A stretch of 64,000 nt of DNA. It comes from Hymenobacter nivis (GTDB lineage Bacteria > Bacteroidota > Bacteroidia > Cytophagales > Hymenobacteraceae). Below are positions 59,237 to 64,000 of the stretch, in pieces. The notes beneath the pieces are model-generated. The model was not told where the DNA came from. It did not search any database and worked only from the letters and a program-made list of their open reading frames with translations. The stretch covers positions 124,001 to 188,000 of the forward strand of contig NZ_RCYZ01000008.1 in the NCBI RefSeq assembly GCF_006439025.1, written 5' to 3'. Every line of letters starts with the position of its first letter. Within the stretch, counting starts at the first letter, position 1. The translations under genes and the position numbers were made by a program.

Positions 59237-59279
59237 TTATCCACTTATCCACAGCGAAAAAGGGGTATTTTGTGGATAA
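59237..59279. other. DnaA-box cluster with two perfect consensus boxes
   Basis: Within 43 bases are TTATCCACT (59237-59245), TTATCCACA (59245-59253, exact E. coli-type consensus) and TGTGGATAA (59271-59279, exact, opposite strand). An A/G-rich spacer separates the last two. The cluster lies immediately downstream of the acidic-protein stop. It may be part of, or an outlier of, the origin region at 60344-61105. Confidence 0.7.
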
Positions 59280-59848: not shown

Positions 59849-60343
59849 CTATTTGCCGTAGCGGGCAATGAAGGCCTCTTTCTGGCGCACGTATTCGGGG
59901 TGGACTTTGGCCGCGTCCCACTGCCGGCCGAAGATTTCGGCGGCCGCTACCTTGTCGGGGTCGGGGGCGGCGGTGCGGGGCAGCTCGGCGCGGCCGTGGG
60001 CCCCGGACTGGCCTTTTTTGTCGGCCGGCACGGGGCCGTCGTACTTCTTGCCGCCGCGGTGGTTGGCGTAGCGCCGGGCCCGGGTGAAGCCCATTTGCAG
60101 GAACTTGCGGGCCATGTCGGCCCCCACAAAATCTTCGGCCTTCAAATACGCCTCAAACAGGCCCCAAATAGCTTCTGAGGAAGCCGTGGCCGCCGCCGCG
60201 TCTTTGAAGCGCCAGTGGGGCAGAATCTCGCCCTTGTAGGGCTGCACCAGCAGCACGCCCTGCTCGCCGCGCCCCACGCGGTAGAGCTCGGGGTGCTGGC
60301 GAAAATCGACGGTGTGGAAATCGAGGGTGTAATCGAACGGCAT
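59849..60343 (-). CDS. DUF4385-family protein
   Basis: A 164-residue cytoplasmic protein of the DUF4385 family. The N-terminal FDYTLDFHTVDFRQHPELYRVGRGEQGVLLVQPYKGEILPHWRFK and FVGADMARKFLQMGFTRARRYANHRGGKKYDG are the conserved segments. It ends DKVAAAEIFGRQWDAAKVHPEYVRQKEAFIARYGK. From memory DUF4385 members also occur in phages; its function is unknown. I chose the ATG at 60343, which starts at the conserved domain. The reading frame stays open to 60625 but encodes only Pro/Tyr/His/Gly repeats that are read from the DnaA-box array and are probably not translated. Confidence 0.82.
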   Translation of the reverse strand: MPFDYTLDFHTVDFRQHPELYRVGRGEQGVLLVQPYKGEILPHWRFKDAAAATASSEAIWGLFEAYLKAEDFVGADMARKFLQMGFTRARRYANHRGGKKYDGPVPADKKGQSGAHGRAELPRTAAPDPDKVAAAEIFGRQWDAAKVHPEYVRQKEAFIARYGK

Positions 60344-61105
60344 AACGGGGCCCGGGTGGGGATAAAGTGGATAAGTACGTGGATAACCGCCCGGCGTGGT
60401 GCCCCAAGGGGGATAAGGTGAATAACTGTGGGGCCAACCGCCCGGCGGGGGCCCTCGGTGGGGATAAGGTGGATAACCGTGGGGATAACGGGTCGGCTGG
60501 GGCCCCGGTGGGAATGCGCGGGGCCCCCGGCTGGCCAGCCCCGGGGCCCCAGCCGGCAAGAGTGGCCCGGGGGCAAGGGCCGGGAGTTTTCCACCTGGAT
60601 AAACTTTGATTAAATTTTTTTTCAAAAAAACCCTTTCTATTTCCAGTTATTAGGGACGTTAATAAGTGGACAACTCGGTGGGGTTATCCACCGTGCGGAT
60701 AACTTGTGGGTAAAGCAGGGGTTGTCCACCGGATATCCACCGGCAATGTGGATATCATTCGGCTGTGCATCAGCACGTTGATTGCCTTTTCCACCTATCC
60801 CCACGTTCTCCACATACGCACAATCCACCGGGCGGGGCCGCTGGGGATTGGGCATATCTGGTGGGGGAGTTATCCCCGGTTGTCCACCGGCCGCGCGCCC
60901 TGTGTGAGGTCCCTCTCCCACCAAATAAAGTTGTGCGCATGTTATCCCCACGCGGCCGGTGGGTTTCCCCCAGGTTATCCACCAAAACAGGGCCCCGGGC
61001 AAAGGCATGTGGAAAACCCGGTGGAAAACCGGTGGATTACCGCCCAAAAAGGCCCTCAGTAACTGGAAATAGCCTAAAGTTATCCCCCAATGTGGATTAC
61101 TCGGG
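60344..61105. other. candidate replication origin (oriC): dense DnaA-box array
   Basis: A gene-free stretch of 762 bases holding many DnaA-box-like 9-mers within one base of TTATCCACA. On the reverse strand these are at 60357, 60366, 60378, 60459, 60468, 60480, 60694, 60705, 60747 and 61091. On the forward strand they are at 60684, 60806, 60942 and 60975. A TTWTNCACA match lies at 61008 (TGTGGAAAA). An AT-rich segment (about 60601-60660, runs of A and T) sits between the left and right groups and could be the unwinding element. A 13-base inverted repeat (CTATTTCCAGTTA, 60637-60649, and its complement, 61060-61072) bounds the right-hand core. No gene is supported here. mnmG, a classic origin neighbour, is about 3 kb away. 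Confidence 0.75.
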
Positions 61106-62746
61106 CTAAAATGCGACGGGTTCTTCGATTTCGAAGTTTGAGCGCAGCTGCACCACTTTGGGCAGCAAAACCACCGGCTCGGGGGCCGTAATCAGGTCGG
61201 GGTTGCCGCCCTGCCAGCGGCCGTCGCCGTTGGCGTCCACGAGCACGCGCAGGCGGTACTTGCCGGGGGGCACGTGCTCGAAGCGGTACTTGCCCACGGG
61301 CGAGGCCAGGGCCTGCACCACCTCGTACTTGTCGTTCAGGAGCTGCAAAACGAAGCTTTTGCGCTCGGTTTTGATGGTGCCGAACAGGGTGCCGTCGGGG
61401 TCTACTTCGCCCAGCTCGAAGCGCAGCGGGCGGCGGGGCCAGCGCAGGGCCTGCCCGGTCACGGGCAGCAGGGCGGTGCTGTCAATAACCAGCTCGACGC
61501 GGTTTTTGGCTTGGGTGTTCAGCATCACCGTTAGCTCGGTGCGGGCGGCGTTGAAGGTGGCGTCGGCGGGTAGGCGCAGGGGGCGGCGGCGCACCGAGTC
61601 CTCCACCAGCGTGCCCACCGGACGGCCGGCCACGGCCAGCATGGGCACCGGGAATTGGAGCCGCACGCGGCCCTGGCGGTACACGCTGCGCGGGTTGCCC
61701 TCCACGGTGTAGGCCACGGCCTCGGGGGCCTTGCGGGCGTTGGCCCCGGGCACCGGGAAGCGCACGGCCAGCGTGTCGCGGGCTACGTTGCCGCTGCTGT
61801 CGGTGGCCGTGAGCAGGTAGCGGCCATCGGCCAGGCCCGCTGACTTGAAGAGTAGCAAGTTGCGCCCCCCGTCGGTGAGCTGCACGGCCTCGGGGGCGGG
61901 GGTGCGGGCGGGGTCCGGGGCGGGCAGCGGGGCCAGGGCGGCGGTGGCCAGCCCCTCGTTGAAGGCGATGCGCAGCGCGGTGGGCCCCGGCGTTTGGGTG
62001 GTGAGCAGCGGCGGCCGGCGGTCGGGCCGGGTGAGCTGCAAATCGGCCACGAGGGGCGTGGGGCCCACCGCCACGGGCGCGGGCAGGTAGCCGATGTGCT
62101 CGCCCTCGTCGAAGCGGTTGTTGGTGTTCTTGTCCACGAAGGCGTAGAGGCGGTAGGTGCCGGACCGCAGAAAGCCCAGGTTGTAGGCGCCCTTCTTATC
62201 GGTGCGGGTGAGGTAGTAGGGCCGGCCGCGGCGCACGCCGGCCGTGTCGGCCAGCCGGAACAGGGCCACGCTGGCCTCGCCGATGGGCTGGGCCGTGAGC
62301 AGGTCCGTGACGGTGCCGCGCACCACCCCAGAGTCGAGCACGGCGCCGGTGCTAAAGCTAAGCTGGGCGTTTTTGGCCGGCAGGCTCTCCGTGATGTCCA
62401 CCACCGCGTTGCGGAAGTTGAAGCTGTAGGTGGTGCTGTCGGCCAGCGGCTTGTCGAACAGCAGCGTGACCGAGTTGCGGTCCTCGCGCAGCTTGTAGTT
62501 GTTGTCGGGCGCGAGCTGGGGCGTGATGAGCAGGTTCTTGCTCAGGTCCTTCACCTGTACGTACTCCGAAAATACGAGCCGCACCGACTGCAATTTCACG
62601 TTGCGGGCCGCGCTGTCGGGCACGCTGCTGATGAGGCGCGGCGGCGTCACGTCGCGGGGGCCCCCCTGGGGCGGTGCCACGGCCGCGCAGCTCGCCAGGG
62701 CCCCCAGGGCCGCCACGGCCAGCCATCGTTCGGCACAAAAAGCCAT
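61106..62746 (-). CDS. Ig-like-domain lipoprotein (SbsA-like N-terminal domain)
   Basis: A 546-residue lipoprotein with signal WLAVAALGALASC. A Big_5/SbsA-type Ig-like domain follows (PPRLISSVPDSAARNVKLQSVRLVFSEYVQVKDLSKNLLITPQL, about 30-130). A carboxypeptidase-like segment comes next (GSGTYRLYAFVDKNTNNRFDEGEHIGYL-type, about 180-215), then further beta-rich repeats. A similar VPPGKYRLRVLVDANGDGRWQGGNPDL segment is near the end. Such proteins are conserved in Bacteroidota and outer-membrane linked, but their role is unknown. The ATG at 62746 gives the lipobox; the longer frame overlaps the methyltransferase gene. The stop lies at the edge of the DnaA-box array. Confidence 0.88.
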   Translation of the reverse strand: MAFCAERWLAVAALGALASCAAVAPPQGGPRDVTPPRLISSVPDSAARNVKLQSVRLVFSEYVQVKDLSKNLLITPQLAPDNNYKLREDRNSVTLLFDKPLADSTTYSFNFRNAVVDITESLPAKNAQLSFSTGAVLDSGVVRGTVTDLLTAQPIGEASVALFRLADTAGVRRGRPYYLTRTDKKGAYNLGFLRSGTYRLYAFVDKNTNNRFDEGEHIGYLPAPVAVGPTPLVADLQLTRPDRRPPLLTTQTPGPTALRIAFNEGLATAALAPLPAPDPARTPAPEAVQLTDGGRNLLLFKSAGLADGRYLLTATDSSGNVARDTLAVRFPVPGANARKAPEAVAYTVEGNPRSVYRQGRVRLQFPVPMLAVAGRPVGTLVEDSVRRRPLRLPADATFNAARTELTVMLNTQAKNRVELVIDSTALLPVTGQALRWPRRPLRFELGEVDPDGTLFGTIKTERKSFVLQLLNDKYEVVQALASPVGKYRFEHVPPGKYRLRVLVDANGDGRWQGGNPDLITAPEPVVLLPKVVQLRSNFEIEEPVAF

Positions 62747-63859: not shown

Positions 63860-64000
63860 TTAGCGGTTCAGGTACACCATCAGCACCGACACGTCGGCTG
63901 GCGAGATGCCGCTGATGCGGCTGGCCTGGCCCAGCGTTTCGGGCTGAATCTTGAGCAGCTTTTCGCGGGCCTCGTGGCTGAGGGCGGGCATGGCGCGGTA
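63860..64000 (-). CDS. mnmG: tRNA U34 carboxymethylaminomethyl synthesis enzyme MnmG, C-terminal end (partial)
   Basis: The last 46 codons of a gene running off the window edge on the minus strand. The peptide begins [19 protein letters not shown], continues [19 protein letters not shown] and ends VLMVYLNR with a TAA stop. The '[17 protein letters not shown]' pattern is the conserved C-terminal helical domain of MnmG (GidA). With MnmE and FAD it adds the cmnm5 group to U34 of several tRNAs. mnmG is often next to the replication origin. The catalytic and FAD-binding parts are outside the window. Confidence 0.93.

Follow-up and report, generated by a model that had tools for sequence, protein, structure and literature searches.

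The 762-bp array of DnaA boxes at 60344..61105 is very probably the chromosomal replication origin (oriC) of a Hymenobacter species, one that would be bound by DnaA at a site distant from dnaA. The array lies in a 64-kb stretch of DNA (hereafter the window; positions 124001-188000 of the 310-kb contig C22 of genome G000, a draft assembly of 5.44 Mb in 23 contigs). A first-pass annotation had proposed a chromosomal origin separate from dnaA, and this proposal is upheld by a change point in T/A skew on the array's own contig, by four relatives, by the direction of rRNA genes, and by a core kept across the genus. Origins in Bacteroidetes commonly lie far from dnaA (PMC4755523), and the arrangement is therefore not exotic: the dnaA-distant Hymenobacter origin is a well-supported further case of one already known in the phylum. 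No description of a Hymenobacter origin was found in the literature searched, the DoriC database itself lying outside that search.

Density and setting of the DnaA-box array

The array contains 15 nonamers within one mismatch of TTATCCACA, none of them an exact TTATCCACA, compared with 21 in the whole window; at least 14, on both strands of one stretch, had been claimed. This intergenic cluster, of the kind expected of an oriC, is well above chance, as first-order Markov resamples gave a mean count per 762 bp of 0.15 with the composition of the array (maximum of 3 in 500) and 0.05 with that of the window (maximum of 1). The runner-up among separate 762-bp windows in 601 kb of the same genome held three boxes. 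Similarly, the 5.44-Mb assembly has 89 exact copies of the 8-mer TTATCCAC, with their densest cluster at the array and no second comparable cluster found across the whole assembly. Equally dense arrays elsewhere, which had been named as grounds for rejecting an origin, were thus absent from both the 762-bp windows and the 8-mer list, and the array is a single site in the chromosome that is also conserved among relatives.

As the annotation had it, no recognizable gene lies between the left neighbor of the array, a DUF4385 gene on the minus strand (59849..60343, starting at 60343; PF14328), and its conserved right neighbor, a gene for a Big_5 (Ig-like) protein also on the minus strand (61106..62746, ending at 61106; PF13205). 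The Big_5 gene was present in all 59 genomes searched and served as the anchor for comparisons; its nearest named relative is from Hymenobacter coccineus (90% identity), and the best 70-odd matches were all from Hymenobacter. The mnmG/gidA gene, placed by the annotation 2.8 kb to the right, has its 3′ end 2.75 kb from the array (63860..64000, minus strand; PF01134) and runs out of the window to window-equivalent position 65728. The gene for DnaA was correctly said to be outside the window, being single-copy and located on contig C12, and it is separated from the array by ~1.0-1.2 Mb in the relatives G012, G002, G006, and G032. The array is therefore not an oriC of the dnaA-adjacent type, and the 18 kb around dnaA contains one box only. 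The DnaA of this genome retains the box-recognition signature GGRDHTTV.

In Escherichia coli, oriC also lies away from dnaA and near mnmG/gidA, and both origins have an AT-rich segment flanked by boxes, which in E. coli is unwound. However, the Hymenobacter array lacks GATC and AGATCT, differs in what lies between it and mnmG, and has tandem boxes set at an 8-bp step.

A satellite of three DnaA boxes lies between two genes 1.1 kb to the left of the array (59237..59279; orientations +, +, and −), with steps of 8 and 26 bp and the form TTATCCACTTATCCACA-17-TGTGGATAA. The same box steps recur in many relatives at ~1.1-1.7 kb from the array. Facing pairs of TTATCCAC boxes 17 bp apart were also observed at three more sites in the genome, namely L224 (C12 near 140641), L225 (C20 near 286758), and L003 (C22 near 35971), and the pair on C12 closely resembles the satellite.

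Strand composition and rRNA gene direction

The array coincides with a switch in strand composition. We compared T with A at the four-fold sites of genes called by a simple codon-model script and entered gene strand as a covariate. Along contig C22, a scan in 5-kb steps placed the best change point at 185 kb (b = 0.159, se 0.033; reached by 0 of 500 gene permutations), and the array occupies 184.34-185.11 kb. Four relatives with single-contig chromosomes were each represented by 17-20 stretches of 20 kb and scanned under an antipodal model, in which origin and terminus lie opposite each other. Correlation between neighboring stretches is not taken into account by the permutations, and the following figures are accordingly guides: the best position was 3.46 Mb in G012 (array at 3.459; 0 of 1000 permutations), 3.54 in G002 (array at 3.534; 0 of 1000), 2.10 in G032 (array at 2.008; 9 of 1000), and 4.56 in G006, where the array at 4.81 was within 0.3 log units (17 of 1000). 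In G032 and G006, the skew is weak and its maximum is off the exact array position. As an origin, dnaA fitted worse than the array in all four relatives. A distant relative with a 9-Mb genome (G040) was left out, its skew pattern being unclear and no 16S match having been obtained. The T/A skew of the contig itself and of the four relatives thus places the array at a strand-composition switch, as expected of an oriC.

Co-direction of rRNA operons with replication forks is likewise expected of an origin, and 15 of 17 16S genes in six genomes point the same way as forks departing from the array (antipodal terminus); the operons running the wrong way are at 0.02 Mb in G032 and 1.43 Mb in G020. 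Two other points made by the annotation carried no weight. The GC-skew check that it had recommended met with a noisy raw signal on the contig, and the strand-corrected signal was uninformative in G012 and G032, of opposite sign in G002, and supportive only in G006. The argument from gene orientation fails because coding in the relatives is without leading-strand bias, the leading strand holding only 43-59% of coding bases in the four genomes.

A dense box array could also serve as a datA- or DARS-type locus, titrating or reactivating DnaA and so timing initiation without opening, with the true origin elsewhere, and the conserved three-box satellite, 1.1 kb off, is similar to a site of this type. 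We consider this very unlikely, given that the array coincides with both the strand-composition switch and the rRNA directions, that it has a conserved AT-rich core, and that the exact 8-mer revealed no second array of its kind in the genome. Less probable still is that the array marks the replication terminus with polarity reversed. Skew switches mark termini too, and leading-strand T/A polarity is not universal; however, in most Bacteroidetes the leading strand follows the general enrichment in G and T (PMC5291525), origins are where DnaA boxes are expected, and the same 15 of 17 rRNA operons are directed away from the array.

A conserved core with variable flanks

Alignment of 35 loci delimited an origin core of ~130 bp that is kept across Hymenobacter (60587..60721, plus strand). 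Its order is a left box, a TTAATAACTTTT-like AT-rich segment, a T-rich/C-rich block, TTAGGG, tandem boxes at an 8-bp step, and more boxes, the first of the right group. The left core box is TTTTCCACC in the window (60587..60595, plus strand) and TTATCCACA or TTTTCCACA in many relatives. The AT-rich segment (60600..60643), a predicted duplex unwinding element, aligns and is AT-rich genus-wide; GC content is 20% at 60601-60650 in a window of 65% GC, in agreement with the claim of an AT-rich segment between box groups. A conserved candidate unwinding element thus adjoins the boxes, as in known origins, and its opening is a prediction. The TTAGGG element (60650..60655, plus strand), between the AT-rich segment and the tandem boxes, reads TTAGG or TCAGG in nearly every row of the alignment. 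The tandem boxes themselves (60657..60673, minus strand; CGTTAATAA/AGTGGACAA) are degenerate in the window species, with two to three mismatches, and several relatives have GTGGATAAGTGGATAA. The right group comprises nine boxes in both orientations (60684..61099). A repeat search also detected a 24-nt inverted repeat beginning CTATTTCCAGTTATTAGGG, with one arm at 60637..60660 (plus strand) and the other at 61049-61072; inverted copies of a CTATTTCCAGTTA block stand at either end of the right group, and G012 has CTATTTCC/GGAAATAG at matching positions.

The left box group has a different history. It consists of three head-to-tail 51-bp units (60347..60506, minus strand), whose six boxes (60357-60488) share a single orientation, as the annotation had stated, but not the single sequence that it had given them, three being GTGGATAA and three GGGGATAA. 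The number of units is three in the window, two in H. coccineus (L144), one in G012 (L035), and zero in L145, and by this comparison the group is a recent, lineage-specific tandem expansion. Accordingly, its casting as one half of the origin has to be given up, the unit count falling from three to none among close species.

A degenerate pattern representing the tandem-box part of the core was used to scan 150 genomes (66 from the genus and 84 from other family members). It matched in 60 of the 66, once only in 58, and in 28 of the 84, while a reversed control pattern gave two matches in all 150. In nearly all of ~73 Hymenobacter loci, the array adjoins Big_5 on its 3′ side; it is displaced from Big_5 in L084-L086, where the core is still kept. 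The array at first seemed to be lost from G009, G023, and G026, but this reflected the short first flank; in these genomes it is there, farther from Big_5. Among other families of the order, dense boxes lie beside Big_5 in several, two of which also have the arrangement of TTAG plus tandem boxes, and are absent there in others. No dense array was found beside Big_5 in five genomes of the order, namely G037, G056, G039, G058, and G045 (loci L102, L100, L097, L096, and L103), and their origins must therefore be elsewhere or look different.

These comparisons bear on two further readings, both of which we regard as barely credible. A DnaA-regulated promoter region of the DUF4385 gene would account for a left box group directly upstream of that gene's start, yet this group is the recent expansion, and the conserved core is farther off and persists where the array lies away from Big_5. 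The head-to-tail 51-bp units with DnaA-like boxes would also be in keeping with iterons from the origin of an integrated plasmid or phage, but no rep gene was recognized among the neighbors tested, and the core holds its place genus-wide and also occurs in other genera of the family; for the core, this genus-wide position already refutes the iteron reading.

Predicted opening and significance for the genus

Judging from the architecture of the predicted oriC, DnaA encoded on another contig would bind the array, filling the right and tandem boxes. The tandem boxes and the left core box flank the AT-rich segment, and DnaA would open the duplex there, at ~60600-60650. Helicase would presumably then be loaded, with two forks departing in opposite directions, and the satellite and left repeats may have a supporting role. 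The layout resembles the basal unwinding system of Bacillus subtilis and others (PMC8287927) in its tandem boxes beside an AT-rich segment, its short GC-rich spacer, and an adjoining TAG trinucleotide, with the tandem boxes degenerate in the window species. By the definition of a DnaA-trio array used there (at least three consecutive NAN trios within 16 bp of a box), no such array was found at the locus itself, where the longest run was two; runs of at least three were found to the right in 1 of 33 loci and to the left in 6 of 33, fewer than in shuffles. A TAG nevertheless adjoins the GC-rich spacer, and the options are degenerate trios or a different element doing their work. We put forward tentatively, and as the less likely outcome, that origins of the family open via a variant element, the conserved T-rich/C-rich block ending in TTAGGG replacing the DnaA-trio array, and that the three-box satellite of fixed geometry ~1.1-1.7 kb away is the second subregion of a bipartite origin.

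The Hymenobacter array shares multiple DnaA boxes, a skew transition, and a position far from dnaA with the Bacteroidetes oriCs of Ori-Finder/DoriC, such as that of Prevotella intermedia OMA14 (PMC4755523). In contrast to these, three parts can be told apart in it, namely a conserved core, a satellite, and a left repeat that varies, with Big_5 and mnmG as neighbors; its signal is carried by T/A skew, GC skew being weak. In Cytophaga hutchinsonii, a member of the same order, oriC-bearing plasmids are in use (PMC5288383).

These results give a predicted position for the origin in a large genus that has been little studied; assemblies whose numbering begins at dnaA would have the wrong starting point for replication studies. 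They also serve as a warning that neither GC skew nor gene direction need be reliable where silent-site T/A skew works. The compact conserved core may be usable for building replicating plasmids in Hymenobacter, and would offer a case in which to test how origins lacking recognizable DnaA-trios are opened.
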